From: Pandoraea sputorum
GTDB taxonomy: Bacteria; Pseudomonadota; Gammaproteobacteria; Burkholderiales; Burkholderiaceae
Length of the DNA: 64,000 bases
Assembly: GCF_000814845.2 (NCBI RefSeq)
Contig: NZ_CP010431.2
Location: forward strand, 3,534,001-3,598,000
Direction: 5' to 3'
The position numbers and the translations under genes are program-made. This document shows positions 57,041-64,000 of the stretch, piece after piece; the first letter of the stretch is position 1; each line of letters begins with the position of its first letter. The notes under the pieces were generated by a model. It was not told where the DNA came from. It did no database searches and saw nothing but the letters and a program-made list of their open reading frames with translations.

Positions 57041-58597
57041 TTATTCCTGGTCGGGCGGCGGCGTCATGGGCAAGGCAGGCGCTTGCGTATCCGACGGATT
57101 CGCAACAGGTGGCAGCGCACCATACGTCTTCGGACGCGCCCCCGTTCGCAATGCCATTTGCTCAGGCGTTTCGTTGATCCAGTCCACCGTGGGACCGGCA
57201 GGACGATGGACCGGCCGCGACATCGAACGGCCCACCTCTGCGGAGAGGCGTCGCACGCGTGGATGTGCGCGTTGGGCCTCACGGTCCCGGTCATCCTGCT
57301 GCTCGGCCAGCCGCTCGACCGACGGGTTCCCTTCGAGGATGACGCTCAAACGCCCCGCTCGCCCCGAATGGGCACCGATGAACTGCTCGACAAATTGTTC
57401 GCGTCGTGAGGTCGGTGGGGCTTTCGGCTGCACGGATTTCGTCATGGGTGCTAGCCCGGACACATCTTGCGATGTTTCGACTTCGTCGAACTGAGCGTCG
57501 TCATGCGACGACTCGGACGGCGCACCGATCATCCGCCCGCCATCCGTTTGCCGGAGGTCGTCCCGCAATGCACGCGCAGCGTGCTTCCATTGATCGATCT
57601 CCAGCGCACGCGCACCAAGCCACGACGCCGTCGTCCGCGGTGCCGAGGCTTTGGCATCCGCCAACACCGCCGAATACTCATACAAGCCGAGTCCTCTCGC
57701 GCGGATGTCGTTCAACGTCACCGGCCGGTCGGCCGGATAGCCGAGCAGCAACGCGAGCCGCGCCGAATCGTTACGGGCGCGAATGTGATTCTTCTGGAAA
57801 CGCGACTTCGACGTCGCTGGCTTGAGCACGACTTTGCCGCCACGAACCTTCAATCGAAGCGGCACGTCGGCACCGCCCCTGGACATTTCGCGCTGCGCCT
57901 CACGCGTCATGTCGTTCAGCGCGATCAGCAGATTTCGCTCGACCGTCAGCTCGTTGAATTTCCGCTCATGGCTGTTGACGGTGAGCGCAAGCATGATATC
58001 GCGCATCCTCGTCATGTCGGCGAGGTGTTGCAGTCCCATCGACCTGGCCGGGCCCTTCGGCAGACGGCCGGTCGCATGGCTCATCCGATCAAGTTCGTCG
58101 TTCACATGCGCGATTTCGACCAACTGATCGACCACCGGTGTCGAATCGAAGCTACGCACGAACGCCTTGTTTTCCGGTGGAATGCCGTAGCGCACCTGCC
58201 GCATGGCTTCGGTTCGTTTGTCTTCGAATGAGATGTCGCGCTCGACGCAGAACTGAAAGAGCGTGTGCCAGTTTTCGACGCGCGTGCGTATGGGGTCGGC
58301 AACGAGCGGCTGGGCCATCAGATCGTCGGCCCTCACTCTCTCGATCTCGCGATACGCTTGCCACCGGCCGATCGATATGCCGCCGCTGTCCTCGACCGTT
58401 CTAGTGCGCTGCGGATAGGTCTGCCACGCCTTGCTGAGCGAACCCGCCACTGTCGGCGGCGCGGCGCCCAGCCGCGCGAAGTCCGAGCCGAAGCTGTGAC
58501 CGCATTCGCACGAAAGCGGTTGGCCTGACAGTAGTACGGGCACGGACGATACCGACGGCCCTCGCTGCGAATAGTCCCCGAAAGGTGCTCCCATCAT
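57041..58597 (-). CDS. Unknown 518-residue protein
   Basis: ATG 58597 follows GGGAGATGA. The product has no signal peptide or membrane helix. A C-x-C-G-H sequence (SCECGHSF) lies near residue 30. The middle (about 100-380) is charged and helical, with VERNLLIALNDMTREAQREM and RFQKNHIRARNDSARLALLL. The C-terminal 120 residues are low-complexity and basic, ending in Pro-rich PALPMTPPPDQE. I recognise no family. Its own terminator, AT-rich surroundings and unusual upstream repeats suggest a stand-alone, perhaps acquired gene. A secreted effector is conceivable from the soluble, disordered-ended layout but not shown. Confidence 0.7.
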   Translation of the reverse strand: MMGAPFGDYSQRGPSVSSVPVLLSGQPLSCECGHSFGSDFARLGAAPPTVAGSLSKAWQTYPQRTRTVEDSGGISIGRWQAYREIERVRADDLMAQPLVADPIRTRVENWHTLFQFCVERDISFEDKRTEAMRQVRYGIPPENKAFVRSFDSTPVVDQLVEIAHVNDELDRMSHATGRLPKGPARSMGLQHLADMTRMRDIMLALTVNSHERKFNELTVERNLLIALNDMTREAQREMSRGGADVPLRLKVRGGKVVLKPATSKSRFQKNHIRARNDSARLALLLGYPADRPVTLNDIRARGLGLYEYSAVLADAKASAPRTTASWLGARALEIDQWKHAARALRDDLRQTDGGRMIGAPSESSHDDAQFDEVETSQDVSGLAPMTKSVQPKAPPTSRREQFVEQFIGAHSGRAGRLSVILEGNPSVERLAEQQDDRDREAQRAHPRVRRLSAEVGRSMSRPVHRPAGPTVDWINETPEQMALRTGARPKTYGALPPVANPSDTQAPALPMTPPPDQE

Positions 58598-58795: not shown

Positions 58796-59767
58796 TCAGA
58801 ACCGCGCGAGCAACTGGCCGAGTAATGCGGCCCCTTCCTTGCCCTTGGCGGAATCGGCCCACAGACGGTCGATCATGGCGCGATACATGCCCACGCCGTC
58901 GGGCGAAGTAGTGATGGTAGCGATACCCGTGCGTAGATTCGGCAACTCGCCGAGACGGAACGGCGACACCGCGACGTACGCCTCGCCCTGTGCTTCGAAA
59001 ATCTGAAACGTCTCGTTGGGCATGTTGTCGCTGACGATGCCAATCTGCACACCCGCCGTATCGGCTTCGAGGAATTCGACGATACGTGCCACTTCGCGAC
59101 GGGCAGCCATCTTGCGCTCCAACTGCACGCCTGGCGGCAACCCCAGCCGCCCGACCAGCCCGTGATGCAGAAACTGCTCGATCTGACGTAGACCGATCAG
59201 GCTGGTCACCGCCAGTCGTTGACGCGAGAAGCTCGACTTACGCTCCTGCAAGATGCCCAATACGCGATCGATCGTGTTTTCCCAATGGCGGTCGGCGAGT
59301 GTCGGCGGAATGCTCTCATCGAGCATGTGACGCAACCAGACGTCGTAGTCGTCGGACGTCAGCAGAAACGAAATCGGATCGAAGTGCGCGACGATGCGCT
59401 CGGAACGGCTTTCCAGTTGACGCATGCGCTCGAAGTAGCTCACGGCCGAGTCGTGATACTCGACTTCCACCCCGAGCAGGTTCGCGAGCGATACGCCCAG
59501 CAATGCGGCGAGCCGCTCGAGCGTATCGATCTTGACGATCTCGCCGCGCTCCAGCTTGTAGATGGCGGCGCGCGAGATATCGAGTTGCTCGGCGACATCT
59601 TCACTACGTAATTCCGCTGCCAGCCGATAGGCGCGCAAGCGTTCGCCGATGGCGCGGAAATTGAAGCGCGCGCCTCGCGGCGCTCGGGATGTCGTTGCAG
59701 CTCGAGTCAAATCGCCCCCTGTTGGATACCTCGTAGAACCGCCCTCGTGCGAGACATTGCGGCACAT
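58796..59767 (-). CDS. XRE-family regulator with long C-terminal effector domain
   Basis: As drawn from ATG 59767 the protein has 323 residues. A TTG at 59710 preceded by AGGGGG is an alternative start that removes 19 residues. The HTH_3 domain is at about 38-95: IGERLRAYRLAAELRSEDVA, LDISRAAIYKLERGE. The 230-residue C-terminal part, with SYFERMRQLESRSERIVAHF and PNETFQIFEAQGEAYVAVSP, probably binds a ligand but matches no domain I can name. It is divergent from the porin gene, and the GTCTA-N6-TAGAC sites at 59949, 61367 and 61746 are likely its operators. Confidence 0.85.
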   Translation of the reverse strand: MCRNVSHEGGSTRYPTGGDLTRAATTSRAPRGARFNFRAIGERLRAYRLAAELRSEDVAEQLDISRAAIYKLERGEIVKIDTLERLAALLGVSLANLLGVEVEYHDSAVSYFERMRQLESRSERIVAHFDPISFLLTSDDYDVWLRHMLDESIPPTLADRHWENTIDRVLGILQERKSSFSRQRLAVTSLIGLRQIEQFLHHGLVGRLGLPPGVQLERKMAARREVARIVEFLEADTAGVQIGIVSDNMPNETFQIFEAQGEAYVAVSPFRLGELPNLRTGIATITTSPDGVGMYRAMIDRLWADSAKGKEGAALLGQLLARF

Positions 59768-59948
59768 TGCGAAACATCCAAATGCCGCAGATCGCGTCGT
59801 GCCCGTGTGGCAGTGCCGGGATTATACCGGTCGCCTCGCGCGCCTGACGGACTGTGCGTCGACTGTCCAAACGAAATCCTTCCCCGAGCAAGCGGCCCTT
59901 GCCGTGCCGCCTACGCCACACATCGGTCAGCCGAATATTTTTCCGATT

Positions 59949-59964
59949 GTCTAATTTTTTAGAT
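59949..59964. promoter_or_regulatory. Operator copy 1 (GTCTA-N6-TAGAY)
   Basis: GTCTAATTTTTTAGAT matches the two perfect copies at 61367 and 61746 in nine of ten arm bases. It lies in the 343-bp divergent gap, 182 bp from the XRE start and 147 bp from the porin start. Confidence 0.65.
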
Positions 59965-60110
59965 TTACGCACGATTCGGGACACGGCACCCCCATGCCGT
60001 GAGAATGCCGTCACTCGCAGACGGCCTGACAGCTTTCGGGGGATGACCCAACGCGCGGGCGGTGATAGCCTGCGCGCCGTCCATAAATTTATACAAACAA
60101 AGAGGGAATG

Positions 60111-61205
60111 ATGAAGACCTGGCAAAAGGTGTTTGGGACCACCCGGGCTGCGCGCAAGGCCAGCGCCGTCGCGTTGGGTTCGGTTGCATTGGGTGCTGCG
60201 GCACTCGCCAGCACGGCACATGCACAGTCGAGCGTGAGCTTTTACGGCCTGGCAGACGCCTACGTCGGCTCGGTGAAGAATCCCGGCGGCAACGCGGCCG
60301 CCGTGCAGCAAGGCGGCGGCATGACCACGTCGTACTGGGGCTTGTCGGGCACGGAAGACCTCGGCGGCGGCAATAGCGCGCTCTTCGTGCTGGAGAGCTA
60401 CTTTCAGCCGAACAACGGCACCTACGGCCGTTTTGCAGGCGACAGCTTCTTCTCGCGCAATGCCTACGTCGGGTTGTCCAACACACGACTGGGCACCTTC
60501 CGTATCGGCCGCATCACCACGCCGATGTACCTGGCGACGATCCAGTTCAATCCGTTCAACAACTCGTACACCTTCTCGCCGATGATCTTCCACACCTACA
60601 AGGGTCTGGGGACCCAGGGCGTGGTGGGTGACTCGGCCTGGAACAATGCGGTGGCCTACACCACGCCGTCCTACGCAGGACTGGCGGGCACGTTGCTCTA
60701 CGCCACCGGCAACAGCGCCACGGACCATAGCGCGAAGAAGTGGGCCGCTGCGCTCACGTACGCCAACGGCCCGTTCGCCGCCGCCGTGAACTACCAGTAC
60801 GTGAACTTTAGCGCCACGCCGGGCGACTTCGGCGCGCAACTGCCGGGCGTAACCGGGTTAACGAATCAGAACACCGTGCAGGTCGGCCTCTCGTACGATC
60901 TGGCCGTGGTGAAGTTCTTCGCGCAGTACATGCTCGTCGCGAGTCAGGCCGCCAGCGGCAACTTCCATGCGAACACGGGGCAGCTCGGCGCGTCGGTGCC
61001 GCTCGGTCTGGGCAGCGTGCTGGCGTCCGTGGCCTACACCGGCTCGAACGGGTCCGGCGACAATCAGCGCCGCACCACGTGGGCACTCGGCTACGACTAC
61101 CCGCTGTCCAAGCGGACCGACATCTACGTCGCGTACAAGTACGACCACATGAGCGATATGTCGACGGGCCAGACGTACGGCGCAGGCATGCGTGTGCGCT
61201 TCTGA
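60111..61205 (+). CDS. Outer-membrane porin (Burkholderia OpcP/Omp38 type)
   Basis: ATG 60111 sits about four bases after GAGGGA; the ATG at 60108 is too close to it. The 364-residue protein has a long signal peptide cleaved after AHA (about residue 38), then SSVSFYGLADAYVGS, the usual start of Burkholderiales trimeric porins. SGTEDLGGGNSALFVLES and RNAYVGLSNTRLGTFRIGR follow, and the last residue is Phe, as required for BAM insertion. It gives passive entry to small solutes, here presumably those used by the regulon that includes the MFS and PyrK-like genes. Confidence 0.95.
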   Translation: MKTWQKVFGTTRAARKASAVALGSVALGAAALASTAHAQSSVSFYGLADAYVGSVKNPGGNAAAVQQGGGMTTSYWGLSGTEDLGGGNSALFVLESYFQPNNGTYGRFAGDSFFSRNAYVGLSNTRLGTFRIGRITTPMYLATIQFNPFNNSYTFSPMIFHTYKGLGTQGVVGDSAWNNAVAYTTPSYAGLAGTLLYATGNSATDHSAKKWAAALTYANGPFAAAVNYQYVNFSATPGDFGAQLPGVTGLTNQNTVQVGLSYDLAVVKFFAQYMLVASQAASGNFHANTGQLGASVPLGLGSVLASVAYTGSNGSGDNQRRTTWALGYDYPLSKRTDIYVAYKYDHMSDMSTGQTYGAGMRVRF

Positions 61206-61224
61206 CGCGACGCAGCGAAACTGT

Positions 61225-61256
61225 CGGCACTGTCGAGCCCCCGCTCGTCAGTGCCG
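61225..61256 (+). terminator. Stem-loop after the porin gene
   Basis: CGGCACTG and CAGTGCCG form an 8-bp stem with an inner CGAG/CTCG extension, 20 bp after the stop. The T-run is missing, so termination may be partial. Confidence 0.45.
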
Positions 61257-61366
61257 CCCCTCCTCCGCCCGGCGCGCAAACGACTCGCCCGCCGTCGCCG
61301 CACCCTCCTTCGCCTCAGGGTTAGCCCCGATTATTTTCGTCTTGCCTGCCTTTTGATGTTCGATTA

Positions 61367-61382
61367 GTCTAAATATTTAGAC
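61367..61382. promoter_or_regulatory. Operator copy 2 (perfect GTCTA-N6-TAGAC)
   Basis: GTCTAAATATTTAGAC is a perfect 16-bp palindrome ending 14 bp before ATG 61397, where bound repressor would block transcription start or elongation. Confidence 0.75.
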
Positions 61383-61396
61383 GGATGGAGAACACG

Positions 61397-61720
61397 ATGG
61401 ATCTGCAACTCGCATGCGCCTGGTTACAGCGCGACACGGTCGGTCTGTCCGACATCGAAGATTTCGCAGCACGGTGCCTGAATGCGTCGCGCGCTGCCAC
61501 GCGCGAATCCGCCGCGTTACTGCTGCTGGCACAAGCCGCTCAGGCTTTCGTAGAAAGGCAGTCCGGTATTGCCACCAACGGCGAAACGTTCCACGCCTTT
61601 CTGACCCGCTGTAAAACGTACGCGACGATGTTGCGCGACGCTGCCGCCGCTTCCGACGCCAGCTTTCTCGCTTCGCTCAATCAGTTCGCGGCCCAGCTGA
61701 CGACCGAGGTCTACGCGTGA
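61397..61720 (+). CDS. 107-residue orphan protein under the GTCTA operator
   Basis: GGAG lies six bases before ATG 61397, so this start is chosen over 61385. The product is small, all-helical and without signal peptide or membrane helix: DTVGLSDIEDFAARCLNASR, then an Ala/Leu-rich helix and CKTYATMLRDAAAASDASFL. I know no family. It has its own operator upstream and its own terminator overlapping the stop, so it is a monocistron within the regulon. Roles such as small regulator, chaperone or enzyme partner are open. Confidence 0.72.
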   Translation: MDLQLACAWLQRDTVGLSDIEDFAARCLNASRAATRESAALLLLAQAAQAFVERQSGIATNGETFHAFLTRCKTYATMLRDAAAASDASFLASLNQFAAQLTTEVYA

Positions 61721-61736
61721 CGTCACGCGTTTTTTT
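61713..61736 (+). terminator. Intrinsic terminator overlapping the orphan's stop codon
   Basis: ACGCGTG-ACGT-CACGCGT is a perfect 18-bp palindrome followed by T-run. The TGA stop lies inside the stem. Confidence 0.8.
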
Positions 61737-61745
61737 CACCTGATC

Positions 61746-61761
61746 GTCTAAAAATATAGAC
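61746..61761. promoter_or_regulatory. Operator copy 3 (perfect arms GTCTA/TAGAC)
   Basis: GTCTAAAAATATAGAC has perfect 5-bp arms like copy 2. It lies 62 bp before the MFS gene and 10 bp after the terminator, so it should control the MFS-PyrK-like operon. Confidence 0.75.
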
Positions 61762-61823: not shown

Positions 61824-63092
61824 ATGGAAGCCAACCTGAATTCATCGCGTAGACAACACGCGAGCACCACGCTCAACGCCGGTGACGACACCGTCACCCC
61901 TTATGCATGGAAAGCGTTGGCGGGCTCCGCCATCGGCTATGCGATGGACGGCTTCGACCTGCTGATTCTCGGCTTCATGCTGCCAGCGATCACGATCGGT
62001 CTGCACCTCACGGCGGGGCAAGCCGGTGCGCTCGTCACGTGGACGCTGATCGGCGCTGTGGCAGGTGGCATTCTGTTCGGCGCGTTATCGGATCGTTACG
62101 GCCGCGTGCGCATGCTGACGTGGACGATTCTGTTGTTCGCGGTCTTCACCGGCCTGTGCGCGCTGGCGCAGGGCTTCTGGGATCTGCTGGTGTATCGCAC
62201 GATTGCAGGTATCGGCCTTGGCGGCGAGTTCGGCATTGGCATGGCGCTCGCGGCGGAGGCATGGCCCGCGTCCAAACGGGCGCGCGTTTCGTCTTACGTC
62301 GCACTTGGCTGGCAGACGGGCGTGCTTGCTGCCGCGTTGCTCACGCCGCTGTTGCTGATGTACATCGGCTGGCGCGGCATGTTCGTCGTGGGTGTTCTGC
62401 CTGCGCTTGTCGCCTGGGTGCTGCGCAACAAGCTGCATGAGCCGGAAGTGTTCGTGCGCCGCACGGACAAGACGCAAAAGCATGGCAGCTCGAATGCGTT
62501 TCGTCTGCTCGTGAAGGATGCCCGCACCACGCGCGTGAGCCTCGGCATTGTCATTCTGTGTTCGGTTCAGAACTTCGGCTACTACGGCATCATGATCTGG
62601 CTGCCGACGTTCCTCTCGCAGAAGCTCGGTTTCTCGCTGACGAAGTCCGGTCTTTGGACCGCCGCGACGGTCATCGGCATGATGTTCGGCGTGTGGGCCT
62701 TCGGGCAACTGGCCGACCGCATCGGACGCCGTCCCACGTTCCTGCTATATCAGGCCGGCGCCGTGGTCATGGTGATCGTCTATTCGCAGCTGACCGATCC
62801 GGGCGTGATGCTCTTCGCCGGTGCGTTCATGGGGATGTTCGTCAACGGGATGGTCGGCGGCTATGGCACGCTGATGTCCGAGGCGTATCCCACGGCAGCA
62901 CGCGCGACTGCGCAGAACGTACTGTGGAACATCGGACGCGCCATCGGCGGCCTCGGCCCACTCGTGGTCGGCGCGCTCGCCGCACGTTACTCCTTCCAGA
63001 TCGCCATCGCGCTGCTCGCGAGCCTGTATGTGCTCGACATGATCGCCACGCGCTTCCTGATTCCCGAACTCAAAGGCACCGAACTCGAATAA
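61824..63092 (+). CDS. MFS transporter of the aromatic/organic acid:H+ symporter (AAHS) type
   Basis: The 422-residue protein has 12 helices. GYAMDGFDLLILGFMLPAIT at about 34-53 and LSDRYGRVRMLTWTILLFAV are AAHS-type signatures with the Asp used for proton coupling. GIGLGGEFGIGMALAAEAWP and LADRIGRRPTFLLYQAGAVV follow. It probably imports an anionic organic acid. It lies 75 bp upstream of the PyrK-like gene and downstream of operator copy 3, so both should be co-regulated. Confidence 0.92.
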   Translation: MEANLNSSRRQHASTTLNAGDDTVTPYAWKALAGSAIGYAMDGFDLLILGFMLPAITIGLHLTAGQAGALVTWTLIGAVAGGILFGALSDRYGRVRMLTWTILLFAVFTGLCALAQGFWDLLVYRTIAGIGLGGEFGIGMALAAEAWPASKRARVSSYVALGWQTGVLAAALLTPLLLMYIGWRGMFVVGVLPALVAWVLRNKLHEPEVFVRRTDKTQKHGSSNAFRLLVKDARTTRVSLGIVILCSVQNFGYYGIMIWLPTFLSQKLGFSLTKSGLWTAATVIGMMFGVWAFGQLADRIGRRPTFLLYQAGAVVMVIVYSQLTDPGVMLFAGAFMGMFVNGMVGGYGTLMSEAYPTAARATAQNVLWNIGRAIGGLGPLVVGALAARYSFQIAIALLASLYVLDMIATRFLIPELKGTELE

Positions 63093-63167
63093 CGCGTGCC
63101 TCGTACTCCATACGCACTCGATACGCACTCGGCAAGCCCTCGCCCCCACTATCCGGAGCCCCCATCC

Positions 63168-64000
63168 ATGTCCGTCGTCTCTCTGACGCCCAACAACGTC
63201 GCCCGCCCATTGGCGCGGGTGCCTTCGCCAGCGCGCCATTCGCATGATGGGCACGAAGCGCAGCCGGACGCTGCCGCGTGCGCATCGTCCGCCGGGCACA
63301 TCGTCGCCACACATCACTGCCGGGTGCTCACGCATCACGCCGTCAACGCACGCTATCGCTATCTGCGGTTGCAGGCGGATGCCCCCGTCGCGCTCACCAC
63401 GCGCCCCGGGCAGTTCTATCAGTTGAAGTGCCCCGTGACCGAGAGCGAAGCGCCGTTCCTGCTGCGACCGATGAGCGTCTACGGCACCGGCCCCGAGCCG
63501 GATACCATCGAGTTTCTCTACAACGTGACGGGCGTCGGTACCCGCGCGCTCGCCACGTTGACCGAAGGCGCATCGCTCGACATCGTCGGCCCGCTTGGCA
63601 ATACGTTCACGTTGAACACGCAATGGCAGCGCGTAATGGTCGTCGCCCGTGGCGTCGGTCTGGCGACGATGGCCCCGCTGGTGCAACGCGCCGCTGCGGC
63701 CGGTCTGCGACTCACGGTCGTGATGTCGGCGCGCAGCGAAGCCGATCTGATGCGCGACGAATTTCTGCGCTCGCCTGACGCTCGCGCGCTGGCTGACGTC
63801 CATTGCGTGTTCGACAGCGACGGCTCATCGGCAGTCGCGACGCTTGAGCCGCGCATCCGCGCACTGCTCGCCGCGACACCCCACGATGCGGTGTACACCT
63901 GCGGTTCCCATCGTCTGCTGATGCTGCTCCAGCGTGTTCTGGCCGCGCACCCGGAGATCACGGGCGAAGTCGCAATGGAGCAGCGCATGGCCTGCGGCAT
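63168..64000 (+). CDS. PyrK-like flavin/Fe-S electron-transfer subunit (cut by window edge)
   Basis: From ATG 63168 the open frame runs 277 codons to the edge. After a 45-residue extension, HIVATHHCRVLTHHAVNARY opens an FAD-binding reductase domain; GQFYQLKC and PFLLRPMSVYG are the FAD-binding core, VGTRALATLTEGASLDIVGP the NAD lobe entry, and VAMEQRMACG the start of the 2Fe-2S cysteine motif of dihydroorotate dehydrogenase B electron-transfer subunits. It probably passes electrons between NAD and a partner dehydrogenase encoded further on. Its place in a porin/MFS regulon suggests catabolism of a dihydroorotate-like compound, not pyrimidine synthesis. Confidence 0.85.
   Translation, partial: MSVVSLTPNNVARPLARVPSPARHSHDGHEAQPDAAACASSAGHIVATHHCRVLTHHAVNARYRYLRLQADAPVALTTRPGQFYQLKCPVTESEAPFLLRPMSVYGTGPEPDTIEFLYNVTGVGTRALATLTEGASLDIVGPLGNTFTLNTQWQRVMVVARGVGLATMAPLVQRAAAAGLRLTVVMSARSEADLMRDEFLRSPDARALADVHCVFDSDGSSAVATLEPRIRALLAATPHDAVYTCGSHRLLMLLQRVLAAHPEITGEVAMEQRMACG

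Follow-up and report, generated by a model that had tools for sequence, protein, structure and literature searches.

Conserved palindromes beside an XRE-type regulator accompany a probable orotate-catabolism cluster in Pandoraea and related bacteria

The breakdown of orotate is known from classical biochemistry: Clostridium (Zymobacterium) oroticum ferments it by reduction with NADH to dihydroorotate, which is converted to N-carbamoyl-L-aspartate and then to aspartate, CO2 and ammonia. The reductive catabolism of uracil and thymine (PydABC, PreTA) likewise comprises a reductase, ring opening and carbamoyl hydrolysis, and the dihydroorotate dehydrogenase B of L. lactis is a biosynthetic enzyme. 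The locus described here, from Pandoraea sputorum, would follow the reaction order of C. oroticum, but it lies in a betaproteobacterium and forms a gene cluster with a porin, an MFS transporter and a candidate regulator–operator pair. With PydABC and PreTA it shares step types and related enzyme families; unlike those systems, its reductase is a class 1B dihydroorotate dehydrogenase with PyrK, and the operons of its relatives contain a dihydroorotase (TIGR00856) and no dihydropyrimidinase. The PyrD–PyrK pair is that of the L. lactis enzyme (PDB 1ep1–1ep3), with a strong PyrD sequence match; unlike in L. lactis, this PyrD is an extra copy beside the housekeeping PyrD, in an operon with a carbamoyl hydrolase. 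Turning to regulation, the archaeal transcriptional regulator TrmB carries a sugar-binding domain and differs from the regulator found here, which has an XRE-type helix-turn-helix (HTH). In the XRE-cupin repressors reported for Pseudomonas metabolic genes, an XRE HTH is likewise joined to a signal-sensing domain; unlike in those proteins, the sensor domain predicted here is not a cupin (PMC7901475). In the literature searched, including passages of PMC4016543, we found no paper assigning genes or regulation to such an orotate pathway in such bacteria.

The window, the whole stretch of DNA analyzed, comprises 64,000 nucleotides of the P. sputorum genome (contig NZ_CP010431.2, positions 3,534,001–3,598,000), and coordinates below refer to it. 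A gene for a 304-residue XRE regulator (58796..59710, minus strand), with a TTG start and a conserved ribosome-binding site, diverges from genes on the plus strand that encode a porin (60108..61205, by profile match to the Porin_4 family), a small helical protein of 107 residues (61397..61720, starting at the second ATG), an MFS transporter nearest to the aromatic-acid:H+ symporter type (61824..63092) and a PyrK-like subunit with FAD/NAD and 2Fe-2S domains (63162..64000, running past the window end to 64124). Beyond the window end, PyrK is followed by a class 1B PyrD (L038:6121–7068) and, after it, an M20 carbamoyl-amino-acid hydrolase (L038:7131–8378). The first-pass annotation had proposed an uptake and oxidation system, a description that was not borne out: the PyrK-like protein provides the electron-transfer part of an NAD-type dihydroorotate dehydrogenase, with the catalytic part and then a carbamoyl hydrolase encoded directly after it. 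From the gene families, the function of the locus should better be named orotate catabolism.

Several family assignments underlie this name. PyrD is placed among class 1B dihydroorotate dehydrogenases by NF005574 (365.8 bits; cut-off 269) and TIGR01037 (313; cut-off 270), and its three best PDB matches include the L. lactis enzyme (1ep1, E 1.3e-77). PyrK matches the DHODB Fe-S domain PF10418 (46.8; cut-off 23.9) and falls below the NCBIfam PyrK equivalog cut-offs (120 vs 219). The M20 hydrolase belongs to the hydantoinase/carbamoylase family (TIGR01879, 265; cut-off 204), a statement of family membership and not of substrate. The MFS protein matches PF07690 (MFS_1) above its threshold; it scores 342.4 against the AAHS model TIGR00895, below the cut-off of 418.55, yet this is still its best-scoring NCBIfam model. 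We propose this protein as the orotate importer. Among 32 Pandoraea genomes, exactly the 25 with the cluster have its PyrD as an additional copy, and two of them have a third; the housekeeping PyrD occurs in 31 and is missing from one genome that is 89% complete, and each of the 32 has one unlinked PyrC scoring above the cut-off.

The dihydroorotase gene pyrC is absent from the window's own cluster and from the Burkholderia loci, so that ring opening in Pandoraea must use the housekeeping PyrC or another enzyme; this is a gap in the orotate case for the genus. PyrC is encoded within the cluster in loci of Paraburkholderia, Trinickia, Caballeronia, Cupriavidus, Massilia, Hydrogenophaga and Variovorax, and many relatives' operons also encode aspartate ammonia-lyase (AspA) and orotate phosphoribosyltransferase (PyrE). 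Of each of these three enzymes one protein from the relatives was scored: PyrC reached 438 (cut-off 293), AspA 691 (cut-off 681) and PyrE 245.3 (cut-off 245), but the last only 95.5 against 106.8 for TIGR00336. Together, PyrDK and the carbamoyl hydrolase, with PyrC, AspA and PyrE in relatives, read as reductive orotate catabolism in the order orotate, dihydroorotate, N-carbamoyl-L-aspartate, aspartate and fumarate. Judged by gene content, the set in the 25 Pandoraea genomes very probably serves the uptake and breakdown of orotate as food, with part of pyrimidine synthesis run in reverse.

A pattern search of the window located three GTCTA-N6-TAGAC palindromes, at 59949, 61367 and 61746, reproducing the positions given by the first-pass annotation and the single mismatch it had noted in the first. 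Copy 1 (GTCTAATTTTTTAGAT, 59949–59964) lies 143 bp 5' of the porin start, and its sequence is exact in several Pandoraea relatives. Copies 2 (GTCTAAATATTTAGAC, 61367–61382) and 3 (GTCTAAAAATATAGAC, 61746–61761) are exact and lie 14 bp 5' of the small gene and 62 bp 5' of the MFS gene, respectively; both spacings agree with the earlier ones, provided that the small gene starts at the second ATG, 61397. A further sequence with two mismatches (GTCCATAAATTTATAC, 60079–60094), 13 bp 5' of the porin ATG, may be a weaker fourth site. None of the four is assigned a strand. A weak terminator-like hairpin with a T run lies between the small gene and the MFS gene (61713..61730, plus strand), and terminator-like sites in the region number 2, against 2.4 expected by chance. 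A promoter scan of the region recognized no sigma-70 promoter at the palindromes, and repression therefore cannot be read from site geometry.

The specificity of the palindrome lies in its A/T-only core. With up to two mismatches, GTCTA-N6-TAGAC as written gave 10 matches in the window against 8.3 expected, and is thus not significant there, whereas the A/T-core form GTCTAAWWWWTTAGAC gave 3 against 0.01 expected, a number reached in none of 100 shuffles. Across the whole genome, a single contig of 5.74 Mb, GTCTA-N6-TAGAC with up to one mismatch occurs at 12 places, against 69 for a reversed-pattern control; three are exact, two of them in the locus, and nine have one mismatch, one of these being the site at 59949. 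Exact A/T-core matches number two, both within the locus. Many copies at unrelated sites, named beforehand as evidence against an operator, were therefore absent from the genome-wide count. The third exact place, C1:616725 (GTCTAGTCGTATAGAC), has a mixed core and lies just 5' of a gene that by eye resembles a GntR-type regulator; its half-sites match through chance or a similar operator code.

The same arrangement recurs throughout Pandoraea. A search of 61 genomes returned an orthologue of the small gene in 25, all Pandoraea (25 of the 32, the window's own included), and all 25 loci share one gene order: XRE (divergent), porin, small gene, MFS, PyrK, PyrD, M20 hydrolase and, on the other strand, an M20 dipeptidase-like gene. 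The XRE proteins of these loci are about 94–99% identical. Exact GTCTA[AT]6TAGAC occurs 62 times in the 32 genomes, every copy inside the 25 cluster loci; there are none in the seven genomes lacking the cluster, and the reversed-pattern control gave no match in the same 32. All three sites are kept in every one of the 25 loci. The site before the small gene is letter-identical in all of them, at a spacing of 14 bp (13 in one locus); none of its 16 columns varies, whereas conservation of the intergenic sequence averages 0.67. Of the 88 windows of 16 bp in the intergenic region that holds the MFS site, this site is the most conserved. The porin site (copy 1) takes rank 17 of 382 windows and the fourth copy only rank 66 of 382. 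This fourth copy occurs 12–15 bp 5' of the porin start in 18–19 of the 25 loci, with two mismatches, or one in a single locus. For Pandoraea, then, the original observation is right, and stronger than it was first put. A near-invariant block at 59813–59830 (conservation up to 0.99 over the 25 loci) contains a TATAAT on the minus strand (59821..59826) that likely serves the XRE gene as its -10 box, and none of the operator copies in the window overlaps this likely promoter.

The regulator has an N-terminal Cro/C1-type HTH (PF13560, 46.6 bits, cut-off 27; PF01381, 42.1, cut-off 23), and its residues about 80–300 are predicted to adopt a phospholipase-D-like fold. The domain is likely non-catalytic; the catalytic HKD motif, HxK(x)4D, occurs in none of 40 XRE homologs (alignment A2). 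Three Pandoraea genomes (G004, G028, G015) retain an XRE 83–93% identical without the cluster or the motif, and the protein may therefore have other targets. At two loci, in genomes matching P. cepalis and P. eparura (L093, L094), the porin-to-hydrolase block is absent between the XRE gene and the M20 dipeptidase gene; here the regulator, 92–93% identical, is kept without its known targets. XRE homologs about 50% identical were also found in Orbus and Gilliamella (L213, L215–L222, L224–L230, L232–L236) with no pathway genes near, and the four of these loci that were inspected adjoin an aroA-like gene: the same regulator family in another use.

Beyond the genus, XRE matches at E <= 1e-30 occur in 59 of 398 family genomes, spread over 8 of 25 genera, and 34 XRE loci outside the 25 Pandoraea cluster loci were compared (L102 was left out of every count). 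Twenty-two of these carry either a PyrDK cluster (19) or a DASS-like transporter (3), and all 22 have a copy of the palindrome with at most one mismatch; at one of the three transporter loci, the transporter lies 8 kb from the XRE gene, beyond duplicated sequence. The 12 loci with neither have no copy with at most one mismatch, and comprise three Pandoraea (matching P. cepalis, P. eparura and P. terrae), five of the Cupriavidus genus, three with a distant XRE (33–34%) and one partial match. The search at orthologous loci suggested at the outset therefore yielded such copies at all 19 PyrDK clusters of other genera, whose XRE proteins are 52–80% identical. In seven Burkholderia and Paraburkholderia loci (g35, g44), copies precede the porin and the small gene, as in Pandoraea. 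In nine Cupriavidus-genus loci (L115–L123), the copies occupy three fixed positions. The first, with two mismatches, overlaps the XRE start; the second, with one or two, lies 74–75 or 200 bp 5' of the MFS start; and the third, with one, is found either at the MFS start or 107 bp 5' of it. The two-mismatch copy at a constant place over the XRE start suggests self-regulation in these loci, unlike in Pandoraea. Four of the 19 (L106, L117, L118, L121) have just one copy with no more than one mismatch, and it overlaps the MFS start; their upstream copies have two mismatches, so that the case there is weaker than in Pandoraea.

The exact motif is present in 40 of the 398 family genomes. Besides the 25 Pandoraea these are 15 further genomes, and in 10 of the 15 there is an XRE match. 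It occurs in 35 of the 59 genomes with a match at E <= 1e-30, and in 35 of the 41 whose XRE is at least 66% identical over most of the protein, against 5 of the 357 outside these 41 (Fisher p 1e-38, ignoring kinship and with a cut chosen after seeing the data). One further XRE match (G421, 60%) falls below this cut and lacks the motif. The five stray genomes are at chance level, since the reversed control pattern also occurs in 5 of 398, and no XRE or pathway gene lies in the 2.2–3 kb around each stray. Apart from these strays, the motif is confined to loci that carry the regulator. The initial proposal thus gains support: the palindromes behave as an operator of the locus, preceding the porin, small and MFS genes and tracking the XRE gene and the cluster across species. 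In a genome matching Caballeronia cordobensis (G285), the exact motif occurs a second time, between the genes for a porin of the same type and a paralog of the same MFS type. Separately, an exact or one-mismatch palindrome lies 5' of a gene for a Rieske-oxygenase-like protein, followed by a DASS-like transporter gene, in Paraburkholderia and Burkholderia (L096 12777, L099 11557, L173 19194, L175 18058). The oxygenase-like protein reaches 75 bits with its nearest NCBIfam model, whose cut-off is 600, and these genes are perhaps a second operon of the same regulon.

The small protein, with five predicted helices, had been labeled an orphan, which is wrong: it has homologs at XRE loci of many genera. 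A large protein database contains 29 homologs of the 107-residue form, the named species being Pandoraea or Paraburkholderia, and a 108-residue homolog occurs at XRE loci of Cupriavidus, Pigmentiphaga and Variovorax; an hhalign comparison of these two families gives an alignment of 99 columns (probability 87.5, E 3.6e-6). Among 80 named XRE loci, 25 have the 107-residue protein, 25 the 108-residue protein and 30 neither, the last including all 21 Orbus/Gilliamella loci, so that one or the other is present at 50 of the 59 loci outside those two genera. Two loci whose XRE is distant (33%), and which by eye contain ABC-transporter genes, encode the small protein directly 3' of the hydrolase. Its presence at XRE loci and directly after the hydrolase ties it to both the regulator and the hydrolase.

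From the observed sites, their conservation and confinement to the locus, the gene families, the gene order and the presence of PyrC, AspA and PyrE in relatives, we infer a single mechanism, to which we assign a probability of roughly three in four. The palindrome is very likely the operator of the adjacent XRE protein. A dimer of this protein would bind GTCTA-(A/T)6-TAGAC at the promoters of the porin gene, the small gene and the MFS–PyrK–PyrD–hydrolase operon, and would repress these three units when no pathway compound is present. Orotate or an early product, the most likely ligand, would bind the C-terminal phospholipase-D-like sensor domain and lift repression. The porin and MFS transporter would then import orotate, PyrD–PyrK would reduce it with NADH to dihydroorotate, a dihydroorotase (the housekeeping PyrC in Pandoraea, operon-encoded in many relatives) would open the ring, and the hydrolase would turn N-carbamoyl-L-aspartate into aspartate, CO2 and ammonia. 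All of these regulatory and enzymatic assignments rest on sequence.

Among the points at which this scheme might fail, the direction of control is the most exposed. The XRE protein could activate instead of repress, or the small helical protein could be a required co-regulatory partner; the latter is encoded directly 3' of the XRE gene, on the same strand, in several Cupriavidus loci, its association with XRE loci is broad (50 of 80), and no promoter geometry decides the matter. Most XRE regulators with a sensor domain act as repressors, however, and a site 14 bp before the small gene would suit blocking, so that we regard activation or obligate partnership as fairly unlikely. The substrate could also be another pyrimidine or N-heterocyclic acid; examples are uracil, dihydrouracil and substituted orotates. 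Enzymes of the PyrD-like and M20 carbamoylase types also take part in the breakdown of uracil and hydantoin, and the Rieske-oxygenase-like gene and DASS-like transporter stand under the same motif in Burkholderia and Paraburkholderia. Nevertheless, PyrD matches dihydropyrimidine dehydrogenase much less well than it does dihydroorotate dehydrogenase (PDB E 1.4e-20 vs 4e-79; 130 vs 366 bits) and relatives add dihydroorotase, aspartate lyase and orotate phosphoribosyltransferase, making a different substrate unlikely.

It is quite unlikely that the palindromes are an operator of the locus bound by a regulator encoded elsewhere, with the XRE neighbor kept for another task. The XRE genes without the motif in three Pandoraea genomes, and the homologs in an unrelated neighborhood in Gilliamella and Orbus, would fit such an arrangement; against it, the motif accompanies the XRE gene and the cluster in seven genera of the family (g1, g3, g34, g35, g37, g44, g49), and the conserved block from XRE to hydrolase contains no other regulator. 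Chance A/T-rich palindromes, to which the unenriched loose pattern in the window might point, are ruled out by conservation and confinement in the 25 genomes, leaving this explanation a negligible probability.

There may be a second operator type. The GTCTA site is absent from loci in which the XRE gene lies inside the operon, 3' of the hydrolase or PyrC (Variovorax, Hydrogenophaga, Polaromonas and a Bordetella MAG); at six of these seven loci (L196, L198, L200, L204, L205, L209), a GATACTNNTATC palindrome precedes the MFS gene. The recognition helix of the seven XRE proteins reads SRAVVYRMEKG in six and SRAAVYRMEKG in L204, and that of GTCTA-type proteins SRAA[IV]Y[KNS]LERG or SRAAVYRMEKG. 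That GATACTNNTATC takes the operator's place in Variovorax-type loci is a lead rather than a result. Tentatively, and with somewhat less than even confidence, these loci might together represent a widespread, unnamed regulatory system for orotate catabolism in betaproteobacteria, built on an XRE protein with a degenerate phospholipase-D-like sensor and a small helical partner. Its operator would be GTCTA-N6-TAGAC in Pandoraea, Burkholderia, Paraburkholderia, Cupriavidus and relatives, and would have changed from this form, along with the recognition helix, to GATACTNNTATC in Variovorax, Hydrogenophaga and Polaromonas. In some Burkholderia and Paraburkholderia the system would also control an operon of Rieske-oxygenase and transporter genes that feeds into this pathway. 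Between them, this locus and its relatives offer a candidate gene for each step, among them those of a ureidosuccinase (a hydrolase of carbamoyl-aspartate), an importer of orotate and a repressor responsive to it; substrate, inducer and operator are therefore directly testable. A regulon with few operators and an apparent natural switch of operator sequence between clades would also be a good case for studying the evolution of repressor specificity.

Beside the XRE gene, the window encodes a 518-residue protein (57041–58597, minus strand) with no Pfam match at E <= 1; it is 30–77% conserved among relatives, far below its neighbors.
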